DNA of 64,000 nt from Tubulanus polymorphus (taxonomy: Eukaryota > Nemertea > Palaeonemertea > Tubulaniformes > Tubulanidae): NCBI RefSeq assembly GCF_964204645.1, contig NC_134032.1, positions 16,058,775 through 16,122,774 on the forward strand, read 5' to 3'. The notes under the pieces were generated by a model. That model was not told the DNA's origin, searched no databases, and saw only the letters and a program-made list of their open reading frames with translations. The translations under genes were made by a program, and so were the position numbers. Below, one piece after another: positions 22,780 to 62,391 of this stretch. Numbering within the stretch: the stretch's first letter is position 1; the number at the start of each line of letters is the position of its first letter.

Positions 22780-23412
22780 GCATTTCTGAAACCAGTTCCA
22801 CATTTCTGGACTCAGTTCCACAGTTCTAGACTCAGATCCACAGTTCTGGACTCAGTTCCACAGTTCTGGATCCAGTTCCACAGTTCTGGACTCAGTTACA
22901 CAGTTCTGGGCTCAGATCCACAGTTCTGGACTCAGATCCACAGTTCTGGACTCAGTTACACAGTTCTGGGCTCAGTTCCACAGTTCTGGAATCAGTTCCA
23001 CGATTCTGGACTCAGTTCCACAGTTCTGGACTCAGATCCACAGTTCTGGACTCAGATCCACAGTTCTGGAATCAGTTCCACAGTTCTGGACTCAGTTACA
23101 CAGTTCTGGGCTCAGTTCCACAGTTCTGGACTCAGATCCACAGTTCTGGACTCAGTTCCACAGTTCTGGACTCAGTTACACAGTTCTGGACTCAGTTCCA
23201 CAGTTCTGGACTCAGTTCCACAGTTCTGGACTCAGTTCCACAGTTCTGGACTCAGTTCCACAGTTCTGGACTCAGTTCCACAGTTCTGGGCTCAGTTCCA
23301 CAGTTCTAGAATCAGTTACACAGTTCTGGACTCAGTTACACAGTTCTGGACTCAGTTCCACAGTTCTGAACTCAGTTCCAAACTTCTGGACTCAGTTCCA
23401 CAGTTCTGCATT
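22780..23412 (+). repeat. 20-bp minisatellite (ctcagt variant), about 31 copies
   Basis: Unit CAGTTCTGGACTCAGTTCCA. Same family and orientation as 23937-24200 and 46000-46690. The unit matches the terminal 20 bp of the F1 hairpin. Confidence 0.95.
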
Positions 23413-23512
23413 CAGTCGTGATTTAAGAATTGACCGAAAGGTTACCTAATCGAAAAACGGACTAATTTCAACCAATTTTATTTGATATCTAAAGCCACTT
23501 ACCTCTCCACGA

Positions 23513-23936: not shown

Positions 23937-24200
23937 AAATCCAGTTCCACAGTTCTGGAGCAAGTTCCACAGTTTTGAACCCAGTTCCACAGTTCTGAAC
24001 CCAGTTCCACAGTTCTGAACCCAGGCTCACAGTTCTGAACCCAGTTCCACAGTTCTGAACCCAGTTCCACAGTTATGAACCCAGGCCCACAATTCTGAAC
24101 CCAGGCCCACAGTTCTGAACCCAGGCCCACAGTTCTGAACCCAGGCCCACTGTTCTGAACCCAAGCCCACAGTTCTGAACCCAGTTCCGCAGTTCTGGGT
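23937..24200 (+). repeat. 20-bp minisatellite (aaccca variant)
   Basis: About 13 copies of CAGTTCTGAACCCAGTTCCA and the CAGGCCCA sub-variant. Confidence 0.95.
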
Positions 24201-25080: not shown

Positions 25081-25905
25081 TTTAGTTTATTCAACGTTTC
25101 GACTATATCCTAATAGTCATCTTCAGGAATACTGTATTCCTTGAGCTAGTGTAGTTTATTCAACGTTTCGTCTTTATCCTAATAGTCATCTTCAGGAATA
25201 CTGTATTCCTTGAGCTAGTGTAGTTTATTCAACGTTTCGACTATATCCTAATAGTCATCTTCAGGAATACTGTATTCCTTGAGCTAGTGTAGTTTATTCA
25301 ACGTTTCGACTTTATCCTAATAGTCATCTTCAGGAATACTGCATTCCTTGAGCTAGAGTAGTTTATTCAACGTTTCTACTTTATCCTAATAGTCATCTTC
25401 AGGAATACTGTATTCCTTGAGCTAGTGTAGTTTATTCAACGTTTCGACTTTATCCTAATAGTCATCTTCAGGAATACTGTATTCCTTGAGCTAGTGTAGT
25501 TTATTCAACGTTTCGACTTTATCCTAATAGTCATCTTCAGGAATACTGTATTCCTTGAGCTAGTGTAGTTTATTCAACGTTTCGACTATATCCCAATAGT
25601 CATCTTTAGGAACACTGTATTCCTTGAGCTAGTGTAGTTTATTCAACGTTTCGACTTTATCCTAATAGTCATCTTCAGGAATACTGCATTCCTTGAGCTA
25701 GTGTAGTTTATTCAACGTTTCGACTATATCCGATAATATAGTCATCTTCAGGAATACTGTATTCCTTGAGCTAGTGTAGTTTATTCAACGTTTCGACTTT
25801 ATCCTAATAGTCATCTTCAGGAATACTGTATTCCTTGAGCTAGTGTAGTTTATTCAACGTTTCGACTTTATCCTAATAGTCATCTTCAGGAATACTGTAT
25901 TGTAC
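25081..25905 (-). repeat. 69-bp satellite array, about 12 copies
   Basis: Each unit contains TAGTCATCTTCAGGAATACT, the palindrome GGAATACTGTATTCC and TTTATTCAACGTTTCGACTT. It is the reverse complement of the larger array at 59425-61435. A diverged single unit is at about 28245-28360. Confidence 0.95.
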
Positions 25906-38872: not shown

Positions 38873-39246
38873 TTTTCGGGTCTGCAAAGCCCCAGCCTTA
38901 TTCGAAACAGTACAAGGAATATGTTTATAAAGCGGTTATATATCGTTTTATTTTTACAGGTGTTCAAAAGCTTCCAACGACCTAGTTTTCATCGTTGTTC
39001 GTGAAAACATGACTCAACCCAATAGCAATCAAACCAAAATAATTGAGTTTGTGAAACTGTGGACCACTAATAGGAAAGACACGCCACCTTTTATCTATCA
39101 CAGACACTGCATCAACTCTGTATCAGTTCCAATATAGTAACGTGCTGGACCTGTTCAACAGTGATGTACTTTGAACCAAACCGTTTTAAGACAGTGTTTC
39201 TTAAACATGGATGCTTTTGTTACCATGCACGGATGAGTCAGTTTGA

Positions 39247-42200
39247 TCACCTTGGTACACCAGATGGCGCACCAGTCGTAGGCTCCATCGATTCTCGGCT
39301 GGTGGCCGGCGTTTGCGTTCGTGTGTTGTACGTCATCGCGCATTGCGCTGACGTCGTATCGCTTTCGTCGGGTTTTTCCCCATCTGACGGCGGCCTTGAC
39401 GACTGCGCGAACGATTGCTGCACGGAATAGGGCGGCGGCCTCGAGTAGGAGATCACGGAATCCAACACGAAACGAGTCCGGTGTCCGAACAGCGAATCAA
39501 ACAATCTAGTTCGCCAATAAGATGGCGGTGATCTAGTCGGAGTGTCCGAGCTTGCGTTGTTAGTTTGACCGTTTTGATCTGTTTGACCATAACTAAATAA
39601 AGGCAGCGGATCCGATGCCGTATACGGTGGGGGCCGCATTGTTAATTGGAAGTTGTCCGGTGCATCGTCCGCATCTTCATTGTGGTTCCAGCGGTCCGGT
39701 GGCCAACGGAATACGGCCACGGAAATCGCGGTAGCGGAAAATATGACCAGTAACCACTTAAATAGAAAATCACCATTTTAAGAACAGCAATCAAGATTAA
39801 ATGAGGTTATGGCAGTAAGGGTTACTGATAACGCCTACTGTGGCAATCGAGGATTCACTAGGGGGCGCTAGTTTATGTTGAGAATAATTTTAAATGTTGT
39901 TAATTCCTATTTTGTTTTGTCTATATGTATATAATTCTGTTCATGTTTTGTAAATTTTTATATTTCATATTTTGTATTCAATCTTGCCTCCACGTACAGT
40001 TCTTATGGTTGGAGTGAAATAGATATCTTATCTTAAAATAACGGAGAAACTGTCGGCTGCCACGAGGGGGCGGGGGAGGAGGAGAGGGAGTATTCTTACC
40101 TCGAGTAAAATAATCGAGAAACTGTCGGCTGCCACGAGGGGGCGGGGAGGAGGAGAGGGAGTATTCTTACCTCGAGTAGAATAATCGAGAAACTGTCGGC
40201 TGCCACGAGGGGGCGGGGAGGAGGAGAGGGGGTATTCTTACCTCGAGTAGAATAATCGAGAAACTGTCGGCTGCCACGAGGGGGCGGGGAGGAGGAGAGG
40301 GGGTATTCTTACCTCGAGTAGAATAATCGAGAAACTGTCGGCTGCCACGAGGGGGCGGGGAGGAGGAGAGGGAGTATTCTTACCTCGAGTAGAATAATCG
40401 AGAAACTGTCGGCTGCCACGAGGGGGCGGGGAGGAGGAGAGGGAGTATTCTTACCTCGAGTAGAATAATCGAGAAACTGTCGGCTGCCACGAGGGGGCGG
40501 GGAGGAGGAGAGGGAGTATTCTTACCTCGAGTAGAATAATCGAGAAACTGTCGGCTGCCACGAGGGGGCGGGGAGGAGGAGAGGGAGTATTCTTACCTCG
40601 AGTAGAATAATCGAGAAACTGTCGGCTGCCACGAGGGGGCGGGGAGGAGGAGAGGGAGTATTCTTACCTCGAGTAGAATAATCGAGAAACTGTCGGCTGC
40701 CACGAGGGGGCGGGGAGGAGGAGAGGGGGTATTCTTACCTCGAGTAGAATAATCGAGAAACTGTCGGCTGCCAGTTTTTCTGGTTTATCGTGATGTTTAC
40801 ACACGAAATAAATCCACCAATAGAATAACAGACACACCACTAGACTGGGCAGTAGAATTCTGTGCGAGAAAACATGTAAATGAAACCGTAGTTTCACTTT
40901 ATGACAAATAGTCAAGCGAGTTCAAATACCTGCGAGAGATAGGATGAGTCTCATAAGGGCAAGAATTTGAATCCCTAATGAGAAAGGACAACTTTAATTA
41001 ACTAAGATCGTACCCCACCACTTATTGAGTCCCTGGGCGTTTTCAGGTTCGAATAGTCAAGCGAGTTCAAATACCTGCGAGAGATAGGATGAGTCTCCCA
41101 GGGCAAGAATTTAAATCCCTGATGAGAAAGGACAATTTTAACAATCGTAGCATCACTTATTGTGTCAGAGTCCCTGGGTGTTTTCAGGTTCGACTCCATT
41201 CCGACCGAGGGAGGTTGTCTCCTCTAGGGAAAGGTGAAAGGTTTTTGGGTTTTTGAATCCCTGCTGAAGGACAATGTGTGCGGGTAGGGTGTATGTAATT
41301 GAATCATTACTTTGACTTTACGAAATAGAGATTACTTTGGATGTGTGATATTTGGGGGGGGGGGGTACTATAGTATCATGCCTTTACTTACGAGACGACA
41401 AAGCACCAAGCAACCGATACTGTCCAATCAGCGGGCGCCTCCGGTTTATAAGCGATCGAATTACGGAATTTCTTCCAACCGATCGTCAAAACTGTCGTCT
41501 GCAAAAACAACGCCGATACCAATACCACGTGACTCCAGACAAACACCTACAAAAACAGAATTGAGTTAATTGGTTTCTTCAACGAACTTTTAAAATTTGA
41601 AATATTAACGGTTGCGATTGTTACCTGATTGTTGCGTACGATTTCGCTCAGACTTGTCGCGCAGCCGAGTATGAAAACCAAGGTCACGGTCACCAGTGCT
41701 GCCACCAAGCGAGGAACTAGAAAGAACAAAAGTCTGTTTTTACACGTAACTAAAGAAGTAATAAGTAGGGATGCCCTCGCAGTTCACTGAAGGGATTCCC
41801 TCAGTCCCCTGCGGAGAGATCCCCCTGCAGGGATGCCCTAGCTCGATTCTCACCTCCAACATCTTGCAGACTACGAACCACAGTTTCAGTCAAGGTTATC
41901 TGCGATATCAAGCCCAACAAGCTGATACAGCAATAAAATGAGAATGCGAGCATCTTACTGCGCAGGTCACCATCAAATATCTCGCTGAACAGGAACGGTA
42001 ACCTGAATAATGTGGATATGCGAAAAGTATTTCAGTTGTGTCACTTTTAGGAACCCGTAACAGACCAAAACATGACCTCAGAAGACCCCCCCCCCAAGTT
42101 ACCCAATCCCGCGGTTAACTCTTGACTTCGCTTGACTCTCGGATATTATGAGTTTATTTTCAATAAATCTATTCCACAATGGAACGGCGGCCATATTGGT

Positions 42201-45200
42201 TCACGCGCTATTTCAAATCTCACGTGATCCAAAATGGCCGCCGTTTCAAATGCGGAAGGAGTGATGTTTTAGTTGATAGATATTTTGTCCATGAGGTGCT
42301 TGATTAAACGTTTAACTGCGAGTTTCTGTTATTATGTTAGTATATATTATATGTTACAACACACACCAGTTGAATGTTAGTCCGGTATTTCCGTCACCTT
42401 CCATGGCCAGGATTGCCGCTCTATCGCTCAGACTCGAGGTCGGTGTGGCGGCAAACACGACCGCGAAGAGAATAACAGCCCCGAGCAATCTACAGAAAAA
42501 TAAACATCAATTTCGAAGGATCCAGCTCCGAATCTGGTTCCACAGTTCCGGATACGGTTCCACAATTCCGAATCTGGTTCCACAGTTCCGAATCTGGTTC
42601 CATAGATCCGGATCTGGTTCCAAAGTTATTGAATATGTGATTCTTGTAAGATGCGAGTTAAAAGAAATTGGGAAGATCAGAGTAAAACTTCTTTGATTTG
42701 GAAACTGGCCACGTTATCCTACTTATGCAAAGAGAGCGGTCAAAATTTTGCATATTGAAAACCCGCGCTTGGTAAAGATGTGCAGCCTTTCAACCATGCG
42801 TGGAAGTGGCTGCATCCATAACGTTCTGCATCACTCTACGTCAATCTATTGAATGTTCATAAAAAGTTTGATCGATTATTATTTATTACAATAATTAGTT
42901 ACCGACAAGCTGCTGAGATGAATGGTAACGCCCAGGCCATTTTAACTACCGACTGTGACTTCTTACAGTAACCCGCGTGCGCAAGTAAGATTCCGGAAGC
43001 CAGTCCGACGTCCATTGCGCTATACAACGCGACATCCGCCCAGGTCTTGATGTCGAAGAAACTGCCTGTTTACAGAATGAAATAAATGGTTAACAACAGG
43101 TCCATGAAAAACTTTAAACAATGAAGACATACTTCATACTTCAAGAAAATACTACTAAAAATCTATTTGGGAAACTAGGTTTGATTTTCTTCGTGGCAAA
43201 TCTGATGCAAAGAGTCGAGTAGTTACGGAAGCCCTTGAGTGACATACGAGATAATCTTTTCACAATTTCGACATAATCAAGTCGAAATTCGATATATTAA
43301 GTCGAAATTGTGAAAGAAATGATCTCGTATGTCACCTAGGGGCTTCCGTAAGTAGTACTATATCTCTTTCCATGCGACTTTCCTGGAAACCAGATCCTGA
43401 GATTTTGCGAACTTTATTTCGAAAAAAAAATTTTTTATATAGCTTTGATTGGTTTATTAGACGCACGAGCTTTCGCTACTAATATCTGGTAGCTTCATCA
43501 TCCTGTTCATTCAACTGATCTTGAAGATACTCTACATTAGTAGCGATAGCTCGCACGTAGAGTCACACCTATAAAGTAATACTCGTCACACTGTATTTAT
43601 GCTACGATCCCTCTACGAATCACCATAAGCTTTAAACGGTTAAGTTTGAATTGTTTTGTCCTCATTGAAAACATGAAGTAACCGATAAAAGCAAAAATTT
43701 GAGTTAAACATTTTCGTGAAATTTGACCCTGGTTCGTGAATAGCTTAGATTAAGCAATGGAAGAAGAAAATGAATTGATTTAACAGAGATTCCATACTCG
43801 AATCAAACCGGAACAGGAAGTTCATGGCGTCGGCGATTTGCGAATCAGTCCAGACTGCAGTAAGCGAGCAATACATTGGTATCCAAACGAACAGAACACA
43901 AGCGACTGGTATCAATACCTTACCGGCTTCAAACGTGATTGATACAATCACACCTGACATTGACGCGACCAACGCATGCGTAATTACCGGAATCGACGAC
44001 TGAAATATTAACCGTTACATTATTTATGTTAATCATTGTTAATTTATGCACGTACGCACTATATTTGTGTAGAAACGACAAATTTGAAAATATAATAATA
44101 ATTATCATGAATATTATAGAATGTTGTTATGTAACATTAGGCCTAATGTTAAATCATGCACGTACCTAATTGCATAAAATTAGTTGTGTCATATGCATAG
44201 AGAAAATTATGTTAATTTATGCAAAAATATGTTATGTCACATGCATAGAAAATAACGTTTGTTTTTGCACGAACTTTATTCGAAAAAAAAAGTGTTATAT
44301 CATATAATGATCATATAATTAATCATATAATATATGCATAGGAAATTATGTTAATTTATGCACGTATATATTCGCATATAATTCTACATGTCACATGAAA
44401 TTTCTTAAAGGTGATTAAAAAAATTCTAAATATCAACTATGTAAATTCCTGAATCGACCACGTGACGCGTTCGCATAAGATGTACCTCTGAGGTGATTCT
44501 GTAGAACTCGTGTTTAGAAGCGTCGAGGGTTCCGGGTAGCGCTTTTTGGACGGATCTGAACGTAAAATACACAGACCAACCGCATAATACACTCGTGTAT
44601 GATCTAGTACGTTAGAAAATAAAAACAATTCTTATTCTATGAATTGAGAAATAATTTTAATTTTTTTTATTCTTAAGGGCCAGGTTTTATAGACTGGTAT
44701 TACCGGGGGCTAACTTAATTCATTTTCAATTGAGTTAGCCCCGGGTTAAAGGTAATACCAGTCTATAAAACCAGTCCTAGGTGTTTTGCGGGTCCTGTTT
44801 TGATAGAAATTGATTTTGATTTAACTTTTCACTGAAGTCCAAAAGTGATCTTTATTGACCTTAAGAGTAGCAATGCAACTGAATGAGCTTATAGACTCTA
44901 GTCTTATAAGTTCAATTGCCTAGTGGTCTGAAATCTAGACCGGTCTCAAGCTGTTAGATCGACCGTAGAACTGGTTTATGAATCTTAGGCCACGACTATG
45001 CGATTCGCCATGAACCGATGGAGTCCCGGGTTTAAGCCCGACTTACGCGATCAGTAAGATGACAATCGTTGCGAAGACTGCGCAAATAGTATGCACCCGG
45101 CCGGCTACCGTACGGAACGTGGACACCAAACCGGCTCCCGTATGCCGACCCAAAACTAACATCAATGACGTCATCGGCACGGACCATATTCCGATCGAGA

Positions 45201-45999: not shown

Positions 46000-46690
46000 A
46001 CAGTTCCACAGTACTGGACCCAGTTCCACAGTGTACTGGATCCAGTTCCACAGTTCTGGATCCAGTTCCACAGTACAGGACCCAGTTCCACAGTTCTGGA
46101 CCCAGTTCCACAGTTCTGGACCCAGTTCCACAGTTCTGGACCCAGTTCCACAGTTCTGGACCCAGTTCCACAGTTCTGGACCCAGTTCCACAGTTCTGGA
46201 CCCAGTTCCACAGTTCTGGACTCAGTTCCACAGTTCTGGACCCAGTTCCACAGTTCTGGACCCAGTTCCACAGTTCTGGACTCAGTTCCACAGTTGTGGA
46301 GCCAGTTCCACAGTTCTGGACCCAGTTCCACAGTTCTGGACCCAGTTCCACAGTTCTGGACCCAGTTCCACAGTTCTGGACCCAGTTCCACAGTTCTGGA
46401 CCCAGTTCCACAGTTCTGGACTCAGTTCCACAGTTGTGGAGCCAGTTCCACAGTTCTGGACCCAGTTCCACAGTTCTGGACCCAGTTCCACAGTTCTGGA
46501 CCCAGTTCCACAGTTCTGGACCCAGTTCCACAGTTCTGGACCCAGTTCCACAGTTCTGAACCCAGTTCCACAGTTCTGGACCCAGTTCCACAGTTCTGGA
46601 CCCAGTTCCACAGTTCTGAACCCAGTTCCACAGTTCTGGACCCAGTTCCACAGTTCTGGACCCAGTTCCACAGTTACTGGGCACAGTTGT
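46000..46690 (+). repeat. 20-bp minisatellite (gaccca variant), about 34 copies
   Basis: Unit CCCAGTTCCACAGTTCTGGA, almost homogeneous. Frames on both strands are open through it (Pro/Gln/Phe/His or Glu/Leu/Trp/Asn repeats); these are artefacts. Confidence 0.97.
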
Positions 46691-49798: not shown

Positions 49799-52700
49799 AT
49801 GTCGGTAGACTATCGGAATGGTGGCACCGCATCCTACCAAATGAATCCTGATAAACCTTTCAACAACCATGAATTCGACGAAAAAGGCGCCTCCGATACG
49901 CCGGTAGGTGACAGAAAAAATGTTTTTCTCGAAAATGTATAATTGTTATTTTGTTTAGTGAAAAAGTTTAAGAATGTCAGGATCCAGTTCCAGTCTGAGA
50001 GGATTTCAACTTTATCAAAAAAGAAAAGAGATTTCAGCTCAAAAGTGAACTCTAACTCTGTGAAGTTGGGTCCTGTTGCTGGAAACACAATTTTGTTTTA
50101 AATTCGGGTTAACGGAGTCTAATGTATGATTATCATTATCACGATACTATTATCTTATCATACACAGCCTGGACCGACGGTGGTCGAAGACGATGAAGCT
50201 GTGAATTCTAAACGAGGAAGTTGTTATTGTACCGGTATGACAGGAGGATGTTTCCACCAGTGTATTCCCGACCCGGATGAAACTAACACAATCGCATACG
50301 ATAAAATCAAGGTTCGTGCAATCAATGAATTGAATTCTACAATGTATTATGATGTTGAAATAATTTATGTAAAACAACCGTCCACACGGGCAGATCTATG
50401 ATGTAGTCTCGGGGTCCCCCTTGCCTTCCTGTTGAGGTTGCGCCCTTAGCGTCTCGACGAAGATTGTTAAAATTAGACACTTATCCTTTCGGAAATTAGA
50501 ATTAACTGTGAACTCAGGATCCAGTTTCACAGTTGTGAGAGTTGGAGTTAACTTTGAACTCGGGACCCAGTTCCACAGTTGTTAACTGTGAATTAAAGCC
50601 AGTTTTTTTCCTTAATCAAATCCCATTTGAAAAATGTTTTATCCTTTATATAATTTCTATTTTTAGGACCGGAGTTGTTGGTTCAGGATCCCTAAGTTGA
50701 CGATCCGTCTAAACCCTATAGTTACTATTGCGGCGATCGTCTTCATTTGGGGTTTCGTTATTTTCTGTATGTTAAAACCGGACTTAACTGGAGCCGAGTT
50801 CAAAAGATGGAAAATATTCATCACGAAGACCTTCACATGGCTGTATGTCGGATCGCAGGATATCTGGGCTGTGTTTATCATCATAGTCTATTTCAAGGTA
50901 AGATTACGATTTGAAATATTTCGATGAACCGGGATGAAGATCCCCGGGAACTCTTTCGGCTGAAGATTGTGTTCTAGTCGGAGCCCAAACCATCGCTGAG
51001 ATCCATATCCCGATTTCCGAATCAACCATCCCCTGTTTTGATCCCGGCAGCACGTCCAGATATCCACATTCTCCGGGATCCAGGTGACGATTGTTCGACA
51101 CTATATTTCGACTCTGAACATACCCCGGTAATTAACTTTTATTACAGTACGGTCACGTGAAACTCGGTAAAGATGACGACAAACCCGAATATGGTAACGC
51201 GACCTGGTTCACCATGTTGTTCGCTTGTGGTATCGGAGTCGGGTTGTTCTTCTTCGGAGTGGCCGAACCGGTTTGGCATTACGTCCCGGAAGGAGGTGGT
51301 AATCGTTATATGTCGGATAAATCCATGCCGGACAATACTCTGGCTCAGATAGCTATCAACCTGACTTTATACCATTGGGGTAAGTAGTGTTAAACTATGA
51401 TACAGGGATAACCAACCAGCAGTTTCACGAATAACGGTCTAATACCTTATGAAATGATTCAGGCATTCAAATATTCAAAATAACCGTAGAATACCGTATA
51501 AAATGATTCGAAAGTTCATAATAACGGACAAATGATTAATGAGTTACATTGACGTTGTTATTTTTTGTTTTAACAGGTATTCACGGATGGGTCGTGTATT
51601 GTGTAATGGGAATGTTGATGGGTATCGTCTCTTATCGTATGGGTTTACCAATGACTGTTAAATCATGTTTCTATCCTCTACTCGGTGATAAGATATCCGG
51701 CTGGATGGGAGACGCTATCGACGCTTTGTCCATTATCACTACACTGTTCGGTGTCTGTACCAGTTTAGGTTTGGGCACGATTCAACTAAATACCGGACTC
51801 AACTTGATCAACCCTGACATCCCGATTAGCCGTATTAGTCAGATTATCATAATCTGGTGCATCACACTTCTGGCTACAGCCTCCACACTATCCGGTATCG
51901 GGCTGGGAATTCGTCGATTGAGCGAGTTATGTTTCGGAGTTGGAATGGTGATCATGTTGATCGTACTGTTCTTAGACAACACGTGGTACATCATGAATCT
52001 CTACACGCAGAGTATCGGGTTCTACTTCCAGAATATTTTACAACTCGGGTTTCATTGCGACGCCTTTGAACAGATCGGTAAATCTCACGGTGGAGCTGAT
52101 AGAAATAGAGGTCAGTTATCTTTAACCTACTAAATGTTTGATCGAGGAATGAATTGGTTTTTACTGGTTTGTAAAATGTTTTGTTTTCTGTTGCTATAGG
52201 TTACGCGGATGGTGAAACTGATGGACCAGAAATGTGGATGGATTGGTGGACTATTTTCTACTGGGGATGGTGGATCGCTTGGTCTCCTTTTGTCGGTGAG
52301 TTATTTATTAGTTTTATTAGTTCTATGTGGACTGCAGTATGGGACTGCTTGGGCTGCACTTGAGGGGCGTGGCGTAGGGGTCTTTTGTTAGTAGTTTAGG
52401 GCTCAAGGATGCGATGTGGAGCACTGAACTGCAGTATGGGGCTCTGGGCTCCAATCCAGGGCTATGTGGACTGCAGTATGGGACTTAAGCACTGTCCCAG
52501 CTCTGTGAAATGAAATCGGTTTACTATAACCCACTTTTTGATCGAACTGAAATCTTAATTTCAAAAGTCTTCAACGTTTTCCTTCTCTAAATTCAGGAAT
52601 GTTCATCGCTAAAATCTCCAAAGGTCGAACCGTCCGTGAGTTTGTTAACGGTACAATGACAGCGCCGATTATTTATGGATTTTTCTGGATGGTCATATTC

Positions 52701-53873
52701 GGCGGAATCGGAATCAAAATGGAACGCGAGGCGGCCGGCGCCGGACTGTGCTGCGGACACAATCTTAACGTCAACATCAACACATCCGATCCAAACGTGG
52801 GCCTACCAATCGGAAACTGGCTTTGCGAAAACAGCACTTGTAATCCATGTTCGAATCAGATTATAAACCGTCAGAAGACCATGTACTCAGATTCCTCTCA
52901 GTTCATCGCTCGTTTGAACGCATTGAACAATATCGCAAAACCGCAGGAAATGGGAGTCCAACTGGAAGACAAGAGATTGACTCGTTTATCTTGTCATTCG
53001 AAGGAACAAATGTGGTTCGACGTAATGGATTCTTACGGAAGTATTTCCGGATTTCTACGAATCTTTTCGATTATTGCTATCATTTTGTATTTCGTCACCA
53101 GTTCAGACAGCGGTTCTTACGTCATCGATTGTCTGGCCGCAAACGGCGATAAAGAACCACCGCGTATACAGCGAGTATTCTGGGCGTTTTCCGAAGGAGC
53201 CACGGCGTCTGCGCTGATATGGGTAGGCGGAAAAGATGCCCTGGACGCCCTACAGACCGTATCAGTTGCGGCAGGTTTACCGTTCACTATAGTAATCTGT
53301 TTCGTATGCGTGGCACTGTGGCGCGTTCTAGAAGTCGAAGGTGGTAATCGCGACCCGTACGGACCACAGTTTAAAGTCGGTATGTTCGACACACTTGCCC
53401 GACCTACACTACCCAGACTCGGTTGGATTCTGGCGGACTTTTTCCTAGCTCCGTACATATTCGCCCGAGCTATCGTTCATACTAGCAACACCAAAAGAAG
53501 AACGGCAATGCTGGTATTCTACACTGTCGTGCTCAGTATTTTACTGCTGGCGTTTATTGTCTTGTATATCTGCATAATTTGGGTTCCTGAGATTTATGCC
53601 ATTGCCTGGGTGTGTCTGGTAGCTTTCGGTACGGCCGCCGGTGGCGCTCGTATCGCTATGCGTAGTAAGTATAATATCGATGGTAACATGATTGAAGACA
53701 TCTTCTGCGCGATGTTGTATCCCCTACTTGCTTATCAACTTAACGAAACCGTAAACGACCGCGAGATGGCGGTGGCGTCGTCCCAAAACCAACCGGAACC
53801 GGTAGTGATCGTGAACGGTGCCGTAAATGACGTATATCTCCCGCCGCCTGACTACGAAACGACGAAAATGTAA
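49799..53873 (+). CDS. BCCT-family betaine/choline-type transporter, copy 1
   Basis: Plasma-membrane carrier of the betaine/choline/carnitine transporter family, expected to move a quaternary-amine osmolyte. Coding exons 49799-49903, 50168-50311, 50667-50897, 51148-51379, 51577-52110, 52200-52295, 52597-53873; all phases agree, 872 residues. A cytoplasmic N-terminus carries [14 protein letters not shown]; then TM1 ([17 protein letters not shown]), [26 protein letters not shown], the TM4 Trp box [11 protein letters not shown], and the TM8 signature [17 protein letters not shown] followed by [16 protein letters not shown]. The Trp pattern that forms the substrate box in bacterial BetP is intact. 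A Cys-rich extracellular-type insert (GLCCGH, NWLC, CNPC, LSCHS) after TM9 lengthens the protein against 500-700 in bacteria. The C-terminus ends with [12 protein letters not shown], a PPxY motif. The exon 2 donor GTTCGT is weak. Confidence 0.93.
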
Positions 53874-56523: not shown

Positions 56524-59500
56524 CTACTTAGATTTCAGTTCGATTTGCTCATCGCCATCATCATTAAACTCACCGGGGAACACAGAACTGCCGTGCTCCT
56601 TCATCGTCTCGGACAACTGGTAGGCCAACATCGGATACATAATCGAACAGAACATGTCCTCGATCATGTTACCGTCGATGCTGTACTTGGTTCGCATTGA
56701 AATACGACTAGCGCCAGCTACCGTACAGAATGCAAACAAAAACACACAGCCTATGGCGTACACCTCGTATATACCTAAACTCTTGATACAACCGAGGATT
56801 ACTAGTATCAGGAACGTCAACATGAACGTCGCCATGAATATGGTATAAGTGATCGTGATGCACTGCTTCTTCGTGCTGTTACTTGTGTGCGCCAGGACTG
56901 TGGCAAATGTGTACGGGGCGATGAATATATTAGCCATTACCCAGATGACATTGTGGGCGTTTGGACGCGCTAGAACATCGAACATACCGACCTTAAACTG
57001 TGGTCCGTACGGGTCGCGATTACCACCTTCGACTTCTAGAACGCGCCACAGTGCCACGCATGCAAAACAGATTACTATAGTGAACGGTAAACCTGCCGCA
57101 ACTGATACGGTCTGTAGGGAAGACAGGGCATCTTTTCCGCCTACCCATATCAGCGCAGACGCGGTGGCTCCTTCGGAAAACGCCCAGAATACTCGCTGTA
57201 TACGCGGTGGTTCTTTATCGCCGTTTGCGGCCAGACAATCGATGACGTAAGAACCGCTGTCTGAACTGGTGACGAAATACAAAATGATAGCAATAATCGA
57301 AAAGATTCGTAGAAATCCGGAAATACTTCCGTAAGAATCCATTACGTCGAACCACATTTGTTCCTTCGAATGACAAGATAAACGAGTCAATCTCTTGTCT
57401 TCCAGTTGGACTCCCATTTCCTGCGGTTTTGCGATATTGTTCAATGCGTTCAAACGAGCGATGAACTGAGAGGAATCTGAGTACATGGTCTTCTGGCGGT
57501 TTATAATCTGATTCGAACATGGATTACAAGTGCTGTTAACGCAAAGCCAGTTTCCGATTGGTTGGCCCACGTTTGGATCGGATGTGGTGATGTTGACGTT
57601 AAGATTGTGTCCGCAGCACAGTCCGGCGCCGGCCGCCTCGCGTTCCATTTTGATTCCGATTCCGCCGAATATGACCATCCAGAAAAAAGCGTAAATAATC
57701 GGCGCTGTCATTGTACCGTTAACAAACTCACGGACGGTTCGACCTTTGGAGATTTTAGCGATGAACATTCCTGAAATTAGAGTAAGAAAAAGTTGAAGAC
57801 TTTTAACTTTCTATGAAATACACAAAGGTCACAGAAAGCGATATTCCCGTATCACAGGGCTGAAGCATCCTTACCTTCCCGGCCACGCCCACATTGCATC
57901 CTTGAGCCCTAAACTACTAACAAAAACCCATACGCCACGCCCCTCAAATGCAGCCCAAGCAGTCCCATACTGCAGTCCACATAGCCCTAATTTAAAACCC
58001 AGTGCCCCATACTGCAGTTCAGTGCTCCACATTGCCGACTCGAAAGAGCCGTACATTACGTTCAGATCAGTTCTATATAAAACTAATAAATAACTCACCG
58101 ACAAAAGGAGACCAAGCGATCCACCATCCCCAATAGAAAATAGTCCACCAATCCATCCACAGTTCTGGTCCATCACTTTCACCGTCCGGGTAACCTATAG
58201 CAACAGAAAACAATACATTTTACAAACCAGTAAAAACCAGTAATCAAAATTAACTGTTTATGTAAAGATAACTGACCTCTATTTCTATCAGCTCCACCGT
58301 GAGATTTACCAGCCAGTTCAAAGGCGTCGCAATGAAACCCGAGTTGTAAAAGCCACTGGAAATAGAACCCGATACTCTGCGTGTAGAGATTCATGATGTA
58401 CCACGTGTTGTCTAAGAACAGTACGATCAACATGATCACCATTCCAACTCCGAAACATAACTCGCTCAATCGACGAATTCCCAGCCCGATACCGGATAGT
58501 GTGGAGGCTGTAGCCAGTAGTGTGATGCCCCAGATTATGATAATCTGACTAATACGGCTAATCGGGATGTCAGGGTTGATCAAGTTGAGTCCGGTATTTA
58601 GTTGAATCGTGCCCAAACCTAAACTGGTACAGACACCGAACAGTGTAGTGATAATGGACAAAGCGTCGATAGCGTCTCCCATCCAGCCGAATATCTTATC
58701 ACCGAGTAGAGGATAGAAACATGATTTAACAGTCATTGGTAAACCCATACGATAAGAGACGATACCCATCAACATTCCCATTACACAATACACGACCCAT
58801 CCGTGAATACCTGTTAAAACAAAAAATAACAACGTCAATGTAACTCATTAATCATTTGTCCGTTATTATGAACTTTCGAATCATTTTATACGGTGTTCTA
58901 CGGTTATTTTGAATATTTGAATGCCTGAATCATTTCATAAGGTATTAGACCGTTATTCGTGAAACTGCTGGTTGGTTATCCCTGTATCATAGTTTAACAC
59001 TACTTACCCCAATGGTATAAAGTCAGGTTGATAGCTATCTGAGCCAGAGTATTGTCCGGCATGGATTTATCCGAAATATAGCGATTACCACCACCTTCCG
59101 GGACGTAATGCCAAACCGGTTCGGCCACTCCGAAGAAGAACAACCCGACTCCGATACCACAAGCAAACAACATGGTGAACCAGGTCGCACTGCCGTATTC
59201 GGGTTCGTCGTCATCTTTACCGAGTTTCACGTGACCGTACTGTAATAAATATTGTATTACATTGCATTACGTAAATTAGGTTTATCAGATACAGAGAATT
59301 CACTGGAATATGAATCCCACAAAAGCTTTTTGAAAATCGAAACTGTTAAAATCTATTGAAATAATCCGAATTTTTTGGTTTTACACTAAAAACCATTTTC
59401 AAGGAGTAGCGAATAAATAAAGTCGAAACGTTGAATAAAATGCACTAGCTCAAGGAATACAGTATTCCTGAAGATGACTATTAGGATAAAGTCGAAACGT

Positions 59501-62258
59501 TGAATAAACTACACTAGCTCAAGGAATACAGTATTCCTGAAGATGACTATTAGGATATAGTCGAAACGTTGAATAAACTACACTAGCTCAAGGAATACAG
59601 TATCCCTGAAGATGACTATTAGGATAAAGTCGAGACGCTGAATAAACTACACTAGCTCAAGGAATACAGTATTCCTGAAGATGACTATTAGGATAAAGTC
59701 GAAACGTTGAATAAACTACACTAGCTCAAGGAATACAGTATTCCTGAAGATGACTATTAGGATAAAGTCGAAACGTTGAATAAACTACACTAGCTCAAGG
59801 AATACAGTATTCCTGAAGATGACCATTAGGATAAAGTCGAAACGTTAAATAAACTACACTAGCTCAAGGAATACAGTATTCCTGAAGATGACCATTATGA
59901 AAAAGTCGAAACGTTGAATAAACTACACTAGCTCAAGGAATACAGTATTCCTGAAGATGACTATTAGGATAAAGTCGAAACGTTGAATAAACTACACTAG
60001 CTCAAGGAATACAGTATTCCTGAAGATGACTATTAGGATAAAGTCGAAACGTTGAATAAACTACACTAGCTCAAGGAATAAAGTATTCCTGAAGATGACT
60101 ATTAGGATAAAGTCGAAACGTTGAATAAATTCCACTAGCTCAAGGAATACAGTATTTCTGAAGATGACTATTTGGATAAAGTCGAAACGTTGAATAAACT
60201 CCACTAGCTCAAGGAATACAGTATTCCTGAAGATGACTATCAGGATAAAGTCGAAACGTTGAATAAACTACACTAGCTCAAGGAATACAGTATTCCTGAA
60301 GATGACTATTAGGATATAGTCGAAACGTTGAATAAACTACACTAGCTCAAGGAATACAGTATTCCTGAAGATGACTATTAGGATATAGTCGAAACGTTGA
60401 ATAAACTACACTAGCTCAAGGAATACAGTATTCCTGAAGATGACTATTAGGATATAGTCGAAACGTTGAATAAACTACACTAGCTCAAGGAATACAGTAT
60501 TCCTGAAGATGACTATTAGGATATAGTCGAAACGTTGAATAAACTACACTAGCTCAAGGAATACAGTATTCCTGAAGATGACTATTAGGATATAGTCGAA
60601 ACGTTGAATAAACTACACTAGCTCAAGGAATACAGTATTCCTGAAGATGACTATTAGGATATAGTCGAAACGTTGAATAAACTACACTAGCTCAAGGAAT
60701 ACAGTATTCCTGAAGATGACTATTAGGATATAGTCGAAACGTTGAATAAACTACACTAGCTCAAGGAATACAGTATTCCTGAAGATGACTATTAAGATAT
60801 AGTCGAAACGTTGAATAAACTACACTAGCTCAAGGAATACAGTATTCCTGAAGATGACTATTAGGATAAAGTCGAAACGTTAAATAAACTACACTAGCTC
60901 AAGGAATACAGTATTCCTGAAGATGACTATTAGGATATAGTCGAAACGTTGAATAAACTACACTAGCTCAAGGAATACAGTATTCCTGAAGATGGCAATT
61001 AGGATAAAGTCGAAACGTTGAATAAACTACACTAGCTCAAGGAATACAGTATTCCTGAAGATGACTATTAGGATAAAGTCGAAACGTTGAATAAACTCCA
61101 CTAGCTCAAGGAATACAGTATTCCTGAAGATGACTATCAGGATAAAGTCGAAACGTTGAATAAACTACACTAGCTCAAGGAATACAGTATTCCTGAAGAT
61201 GACTATTAGGATAAAGTCGAAACGTTGAATAAACTACACTAGCTCAAGGAATACAGTATTCCTGAAGATGACTATTAGGATAAAGTCGAAATGTTGAATA
61301 AACTACACTAGCTCAAGGAATACAGTATTCCTGAAGATGACTATTAGGATAAAGTCGAAACGTTGAATAAACTACACTAGCTCAAGGAATGCAGTATTCC
61401 TGAAGATGGCTATTAGGATAAAATCGAAACGTGAATTAAACATAAGCTCCAGGAAACATTTCAGACTCTTGTTCCTTCTTATTTGTGAGATTTCTCAACC
61501 TACCTTTACATAGACGACAACTATGAATAGAGCCCAGATGTCCTGCGATCCAACATAAAGCCAGGTGAAGGTTTTTGTGATGAATACTTTCCACTTTTTG
61601 AATTCGTCCCCGGTCAATTTTGGCTCCAGCATACAGAAAATGACGAACCCCCAAATGAAAACAATCGCGGCGCAGGTGACAATCGGGTTAAAACGAATCC
61701 ATATCTTCGGAATCCGGAACCAGCAACTTCGATCCTGGGGAAAAAATAATCTCAAAATTGGAAAAATGGTAAATTCCTGAACTGAGACTCAATTATCAAA
61801 TCAGTTTTTTTGTATGACATAGGTTAATTTTACAATCATCGACGCCATCTATGGGAATTGTGAACTAAAATTTTAACTAAAATCTTAGTATTGGCACTGT
61901 TCCAATCTTCAGGTGTCTTGCAATTTTAGTAATCTATTATAATTTATTCATGTTTTATATATATTATGATAATTTTTGAAAATTTATTATAAATTATTCA
62001 TTAACAATTTGAATAAATGAAAATAAGTACGAAATTAATGGTTACCTTAATGCTGTCGTATGCGATGATGTCAGTTTGATCCGGGTCGGGAAAACATGTC
62101 TGAAAACATCCTCCGTACATGCCTTGACACCCGCATGCGTCGTCAAGCGGTTCTTTATCCTCGATCACAACAGGTCCGCCATTTCTCTGCGAGTCATTCT
62201 TGTCGTCGGGGCCTTCGTCGTCAATGACGACGGCGTGGTTGTCATGACCGTGCGACAT
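56524..62258 (-). CDS. BCCT-family betaine/choline-type transporter, copy 2
   Basis: Paralogue of copy 1, convergent with it. Coding exons (minus) 62258-62046, 61734-61504, 59239-59008, 58810-58277, 58194-58099, 57770-56524; phases agree, 850 residues. The first exon continues upstream as 5'UTR to a good acceptor (TTTCTTCAG) at 62391. The N-terminus lacks the intron found in copy 1 and reads [15 protein letters not shown], then [14 protein letters not shown], the same Cys pattern as copy 1. From the [11 protein letters not shown] exon to GMFD in the last exon the two proteins are nearly identical; the N-terminal exon, TM1-2 exon and final 145 residues are only about half identical. The Trp box ([12 protein letters not shown]) is intact. 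The C-terminus is acidic ([16 protein letters not shown]) and lacks PPxY. The 2.26-kb intron 59240-61503 is filled by a 69-bp satellite; the matching copy 1 intron is 250 bp. Confidence 0.93.
59425..61435 (+). repeat. 69-bp satellite array, about 29 copies
   Basis: Units of CTAGCTCAAGGAATACAGTA, TTCCTGAAGATGACTATTAG and GATAAAGTCGAAACGTTGAA with TAAACTACA. Two main subtypes (GATAAAGTC and GATATAGTC) occur in blocks, indicating local homogenisation. Located in an intron of BCCT copy 2. Confidence 0.97.
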
Positions 62259-62391
62259 GTTTGCGAGCCTCGATTCAGATCAGCCTCTCGCAATCACCCT
62301 CGTTCTTCTATCTCTTGAACCCCTCTGTCTTGAACTCTTGGTTCGGTCTCTCGCTCTTTTCTTTTCCTTTCTCTATCTCTCTCCGTTCCCG

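Follow-up and report, generated by a model that had tools for sequence, protein, structure and literature searches.

The founding paper on 'mirage' minisatellites is said to be that of Canestro et al. 2002. In amphioxus, these tandem repeats lie over an exon-intron boundary in Adh3 and in the globin genes BflGb6 and BflGb9, the unit length being 10-72 bp in Adh3 and 150-160 bp in the two globin genes; AG/GT signals are present in many units, and splicing is reported there to be regular (PMC3087553). For the Adh and troponin C mirages, the account cited states that no aberrant mRNAs result (PMC3902484). In the literature searched, no further exon-boundary repeat was recognised by title and abstract, and unrecognised cases may be in print. 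A C. elegans minisatellite has been linked to alternative splicing, repeated splice sites being absent from the description cited (PMC4039745), and MIRAGE1 in PMC9071541 is the name given to a transposon.

Here, we analysed a stretch of DNA of 64,000 nt (the window; C8:16058775-16122774) in which a 71-bp minisatellite spans the end of an exon. The array matches mirage anatomy and turnover and would add to the known mirages. Like those of amphioxus, it is homogenised inside and diverged at its edge (PMC3087553); it differs from them in that the 3' end of the exon is present about 10 times and in that nine units have 29 nt flanked by an acceptor and a donor. The lancelet PGBD5 repeats (60 and 108 bp) also lie over splice sites but are imperfect, whereas the present array has ten near-identical copies. 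With a case described in potato it shares a duplication over an intron-exon boundary that carries splice signals; the potato case stands apart in that a new intron was detected there (PMC4974935). Internal tandem repeats in human segmental duplications are likewise minisatellites altering gene structure, but those described in the source cited lie inside exons and introns, whereas serial donors are a feature of the 71-bp array (PMC2812944). On the basis of the results below, we think it likely that the array is a mirage minisatellite removed with the intron from its first donor, and not a row of working mini-exons.

Anatomy and concerted evolution of the array

The features of the array and its host gene are as follows (coordinates are those of the window).

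41392..41546, minus strand: exon 9, which leaves 2 nt over, the codon being finished in exon 10
40739..40859, minus strand: exon 10 (121 nt), whose last 29 nt (40739-40767) are array unit 1
40037..40773, minus strand: 71-bp minisatellite array across the exon 10/intron 10 boundary (Tandem Repeats Finder, TRF)
40733..40738, minus strand: donor 1, GTAAGA, the putative authentic 5' splice site of exon 10
40094..40667, minus strand: donors 2-10, GTAAGA at 40667, 40596, 40525, 40454, 40383, 40312, 40241, 40170 and 40099
40057..40738, minus strand: ten spacers, 42-43 nt long, every one a C/T tract with CAG at its end (latent acceptors)
Just before 40696, 40625, 40554, 40483, 40412, 40341, 40270, 40199, 40128 and 40056, minus strand: the array CAGs
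40011..40056, minus strand: eleventh, decayed unit with the dead donor AGATAAGA, placed by local alignment to the unit consensus
39247..39756, minus strand: coding part of exon 11, with the WLLVIFSATAISVAVFRW helix followed by a tail; stop codon TGA at 39247-39249
38947..38952, minus strand: AATAAA, some 300 nt past the stop, a candidate poly(A) signal

TRF gave the array a period of 71, 10.4 copies, 98% match and a score of 1423. In gene sense it starts within exon 10 and extends into intron 10, and in unit 1 the final 29 nt of exon 10 are followed by the donor and 42 nt from the start of the intron. There are 11 units, ten with the intact donor GAG/GTAAGA and a decayed eleventh; each is opened by CCGACAG (at 40767, 40696 and so on to 40128 and 40056), with nine spacings of 71 and a last one of 72. 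Full cassettes of C/T tract, CAG, 29 nt and donor are found in 9 of the 11 units. Thus, the 71-bp unit set out in the preliminary description, with its C/T tract, CAG, 29 nt, GTAAGA and 42-nt spacer, was recovered in nine complete cassettes, and the row of about ten equivalent 5' splice sites claimed there proved to be ten GTAAGA donors running from 40738 to 40099.

The array has undergone concerted evolution, with one variable site in units 1-9 and decay of unit 11. The single site is unit base 40 (C/T), where units 1, 7 and 8 have C; the exon end therefore joins in the turnover of the array, or else the change recurred. Unit 10 has a T in its exon part that is common to the decayed unit 11, and one extra C. 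In unit 11 the donor has changed from AGGTAAGA to AGATAAGA, and the similarity of this unit past its first 13 bases was matched by none of 500 shuffles. The distal edge of the array stays outside turnover. Three of the features reported for mirages are found here: the unit lies across an exon-intron boundary, its 71 bp fall within the reported 10-160 bp, and the inner units are homogenised while edge units 10 and 11 have diverged. It should be noted that ten intact identical donors would also be expected under selection for their use, and the array is too homogeneous to tell.

Six bases, TGGCAG, are common to exon and spacer at the left breakpoint. Apart from the A of CAG, all spacer adenines are in the first nine bases, against the donor, so that a spacer would appear to have no room for a usual branch point. 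No second haplotype or copy of the array was found in the assembly, in which it is a single locus; pattern and DNA searches of the genome (267.8 Mb, 77 contigs) matched it at its own locus only. The introns mark this genome as eukaryotic, and its gene content suggests an animal; it is smaller than amphioxus assemblies. COX1 had no match in the assembly, and neither had the GFP family or an arthropod cuticle family, although the controls for these two families were silent as well.

We suggest that a tandem duplication with its left breakpoint in the exon would have made a repeat unit out of the 29-nt end of exon 10, its donor and 42 nt from the intron start, and that slippage or unequal exchange would then have expanded and homogenised the array into the intron. 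Donor 1 would normally be used, the array leaving within the 982-nt intron. The latent acceptors may be passengers of the C-rich spacer and of a breakpoint that happened to lie at CAG.

Host gene, reading frame and splicing consequences

The first base of exon 10 completes the codon of exon 9, the frame ILLPSLVV...SIILLE is open, and the exon ends in phase 0 before GTAAGA. Exon 11 starts in phase 0 at 39756 after TTTAAG, its phase matches that of exon 10, and intron 10 is 982 nt long. Within the open frame, which runs from 39777, this TTTAAG (at 39757) supplies the first AG and the sole one before the helix; as an acceptor it looks weaker than the array CAGs, which follow a long C/T tract. The exon 11 tail (39247-39756) contains three PPxY motifs (PPPY, PPSY and PPPY). 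Such motifs occur in proteins bound by WW domains, and frame-shifted isoforms would lose them.

The SLC6 identity given to the gene in the preliminary description can be upheld weakly: dopamine transporters match two joined exons at E 0.037. With the ten exons joined, there was no Pfam match below E 0.44, PF00209 being absent up to E 1, and no PDB match at E ≤ 1. A genome search with PF00209 found 149 places, none of them in the array gene (82 of 316 candidates scored), and the genome contains no paralogue of the array gene at E ≤ 0.01.

To be read as an array of micro-exons, the locus would have to include 29-nt units by skipping at least one neighbour, over introns of at least 113 nt. With three, six or nine units included, the last helix would be preceded by an insertion of 29, 58 or 87 residues; with any other number, the C-terminus would be short and would lack the helix and PPxY tail. 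Several features speak for it. Nine cassettes of CAG, 29 nt and GTAAGA have both splice-site consensuses, and the long C/T tract before the array CAGs contrasts with the TTTAAG before exon 11. Moreover, when inclusion of 0-9 units was tested, the frame was kept, with no stops, at n = 0, 3, 6 and 9, and it was kept at the same n with 22-nt units; the earlier claim that one extra unit shifts the frame and three restore it is borne out. The other numbers gave 85-145 residues from exon 10, versus 209, and the last helix was not in its frame. As to the donors, splicing from donor 2 would lengthen exon 10 by 71 nt and throw the reading out of frame, with an end within exon 11, and use of any of donors 3-10 would reach a stop at the donor of unit 2. 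The full protein is obtained from donor 1 only, and strong selection should therefore hold donor 1.

Intron lengths argue against splicing from unit to unit. They were estimated from all 149 SLC6-family rows, each paired with its neighbours, which gave 63 introns of 67-2977 nt (median 111); with a subset of 99 of the 149 rows (49 pairs) the minimum was also 67 nt. Seven further pairs outside the overlap filter had introns of 78-305 nt, and the introns that could be placed exactly (8 of 18 attempted) measured 78-147 nt. Because a profile match can bridge a short intron, the 149 rows were checked for hidden introns: 14 had 75-336 extra nt, one had 33 nt without stops and the rest had at most 15. 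The 42-nt spacer is therefore shorter than each intron seen, as the preliminary description had said with regard to most introns (42 nt versus a minimum of 67 in 63 estimates). From donor 1 to the array CAGs the distances are 42, 113, 184 and so on to 682 nt, and skipping one unit from donor 1 gives 113 nt, within the intron lengths of the genome. Accordingly, the mini-exon array proposed earlier stands as regards the signals, which are present in nine units, and is in doubt as regards unit-to-unit splicing, which would need 42-nt introns. Neighbours lying 42 nt apart, below each of the 63 estimated introns, weigh against the micro-exon reading, which we hold to be unlikely.

The alternative offered in the preliminary description, competition among donors instead of true exons, fits better; in a synthetase array of like build (see below), joining from donor 1 gives the conserved protein, and the later exon copies are altered. 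In its regulatory form, this explanation says that the donors, by their number, bind U1 and so adjust how efficiently or how fast intron 10 is removed, array length setting expression or the share of truncated product. Energies of pairing with U1 were predicted. The value was the same for the ten array donors (-9.6 kcal/mol), the strongest among the seven donors compared, the other six donors in the gene having values between -5.2 and -8.9 kcal/mol. Classic work on duplicated 5' splice sites is reported to have found that, when all are well bound, the one closer to the acceptor is usually preferred. By this rule, ten strong donors should disturb the use of donor 1. On the other hand, an array of this sequence is present at one locus of the genome only; the amphioxus mirages are reported, in the sources cited, without disturbance of splicing (PMC3902484, PMC3087553); and the predicted closure of the donors by folding was no greater than with shuffled exon ends. 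We consider such regulation quite unlikely.

A hairpin closing each donor was examined separately. For the ten array donors, the stretch from -3 to +6 had a predicted chance of being open of 5e-6 to 5e-5, versus 0.004-0.04 for five other donors of the gene. The candidate was rejected, since shuffles of the exon end were as closed in 40 of 100 cases for the array and in 56 of 100 for a one-unit version.

Minisatellites and exon-end arrays elsewhere in the genome

Minisatellite abundance was measured in 264 kb, made up of the window and 20 pieces of 10 kb; 16 of the 20 were taken from the contig of the array at even steps, so that the pieces are not a random sample of the genome. Non-overlapping arrays numbered 86 at a period of at least 20 and 44 at a period of at least 30, and arrays of period at least 20 covered 17.9% of the window and 8.3% of the 20 pieces. 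With minisatellites so many, some must fall on exon ends, and the presence of exon-end arrays needs no special mechanism. Under the mirage explanation, they would be expected collisions in a minisatellite-rich genome, of which the survivors keep the first boundary intact. In the window, the 71-bp array alone touches an exon span (50 TRF rows of period at least 15, compared with 22 exon spans), and 13.4 kb of SLC6-family loci contained no array with a period exceeding 14.

When the 44 arrays of period at least 30 were read on both strands, a donor together with a CAG/TAG acceptor (at least 10 of 14 pyrimidines) in each unit was found in 1 of 88 array-strands, which is the 71-bp array; there were 4 of 88 at a threshold of at least 9 of 14 pyrimidines and 0 of 88 at at least 12 of 14. 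The absence of such cassettes, at 10 of 14 or more, from the other arrays in the 264 kb counts against micro-exons.

Some further features of the window were recorded. At 50123-53873 (plus strand) and 56524-62279 (minus strand) lie two BCCT (betaine/carnitine/choline) transporter genes, alike and facing one another; the last exon of the first matches PF02028 at E 9.5e-44, and the second was read from like open frames. A 69-bp minisatellite (TAGTTTATTCAACGTTTCGAC...) is found at 25083-25901 and at 59417-61441 in opposite orientations, and a stretch like it lies beside array L043 on C3, as in a dispersed minisatellite family. Arrays of a 20-bp unit (CAGTTCCACAGTTCTGGACC and variants) occupy 22793-23416, 23941-24197, 42523-42627 and 46001-46688, and a related array forms the end of L044.

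The genome was also searched with donor patterns, overlapping matches being included in the counts. For three AGGTAAG spaced 62-92 nt apart there were 220 matches versus 289 for the reversed pattern, two AGGTAAGT at 60-90 spacing gave 45 versus 125, and three AGGTAAGT at 30-60 spacing gave 26 versus 112. A general excess of donor arrays was rejected, since the reversed patterns were commoner in all three comparisons; many of the matches listed are purine-rich simple repeats. Twenty places (L043-L062) were read with their flanks. The AGGTAAG pattern had 12 arrays counted among the matches listed, of which 11 were read; the two-AGGTAAGT pattern had 13 distinct places, nine newly read and three already in the set. 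For both patterns, the one place left out is the simple repeat at C1:12590792.

An exon was identified by homology in only 2 of the 20 places (L047 and L057), which suggests that mirages are few in the genome. The first (L047/L063) is a prolyl-tRNA synthetase exon (PF00587 at E 1e-7; PDB at E 1.3e-10) whose 72-bp unit consists of 42 nt of exon end and 30 nt of intron. Its three donors lie 214, 142 and 70 nt before the next exon. Donor 1 gives REFLMK/DLYTFD, gap-free across the junction against Pro-tRNA ligases (best E 1.5e-18), and donors 2 and 3 would give in-frame insertions of 24 or 48 residues at the junction; exon copies 2 and 3 have RGF in place of REF. The second (L057/L064) is an N-myristoyltransferase exon (N-myristoyltransferase 1 structures at E 2.1e-31; PF01233 at E 2.2e-23). 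After the exon, which ends in LYKLPE, comes an array of 19.4 copies of a 37-bp unit that includes 17 nt of exon. Its 20 sites comprise 15 GTTAGT, 3 GTAAGT and 2 without a donor; the true exon donor is GTTAGT, and the three later GTAAGT copies are nearer the general consensus. The altered exon copies or some altered donors of these two arrays are a further point against the micro-exon reading of the 71-bp array.

The remaining places gave less. L044 has a 31-bp unit, nine donors and a 61-aa open frame into the first donor, with no Pfam match at E ≤ 0.1 and nothing below E 0.07 in PDB. In L048 (39-bp unit, 81-aa open frame, no Pfam match at E ≤ 0.1) the exon contributes only 3 nt to the repeat. 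The open frame of L061 reaches 116 aa, but there are just two donors and Pfam gave no match; for L059 (72 aa) and L062 (82 aa) the open frame has no other support. At the other 13 places, the few hundred bases read showed no open frame longer than 60 aa leading into the first donor. At 16 of the 20 places read there is no defensible exon-end array.

Three of the arrays have peculiarities of their own. L043 (G000:C3:25996624-25997350) is a 91-bp array with AGGTAAGCAG in nearly each unit, and no upstream exon was found for it. In the 31-bp array of L044 (G000:C1:92236-92490) and the 34-bp array of L054 (G000:C6:889824-889998), an AG, mostly CAG, abuts GTAAG, as would be the case for exons of zero length, or for recursive splice sites, arranged in series.

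These comparisons also bear on whether intron 10 itself arose from the array, that is, by intron gain through tandem duplication, with the mirage as its trace. The route has been proposed by the amphioxus authors (PMC3087553), and a case is reported in potato (PMC4974935). Among the fetched loci, two regular SLC6-family genes, L033 and L037, were the only ones read over the loop-helix part, and in both the loop runs into the last helix with no intron there; intron 10 may thus be lineage-specific, the alignment being weak. However, the score of this SLC6 alignment was reached by 2 of 200 shuffles with L037 and by 184 of 200 with L033, and the array gene is without a paralogue at E ≤ 0.01. The start of exon 11 is no copy of the unit, and the last donor of the synthetase array still gives a 70-nt intron, as if the intron came first. 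We regard this origin of intron 10 as very improbable.

Donor choice and the spread of mirages

It is also conceivable, if very improbable in our view, that exon-end minisatellites are a length-variable splicing device in which unit number sets the share of transcripts entering the array. If so, repeat number would be a heritable dial on one gene, turned via unequal exchange, and the products would either gain residues ahead of the last helix, in frame whenever units enter by threes, or have a C-terminus that lacks both helix and PPxY tail.

Ten identical strong donors in a row amount to a natural experiment on 5' splice site choice among equals. At stake is whether the choice follows exon definition and transcription order or nearness to the acceptor: donors 2-10 equal donor 1 yet are nearer the acceptor, which raises the question of why donor 1 should win. 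For this question the same genome offers the synthetase gene, with three donors in frame and 24 residues apart, together with the N-myristoyltransferase gene, whose roughly twenty units carry 18 donors. Exon-end arrays bear, in addition, on intron lengthening and donor movement. If the host lies outside the cephalochordates, mirages would be wider spread than the papers cited here say.
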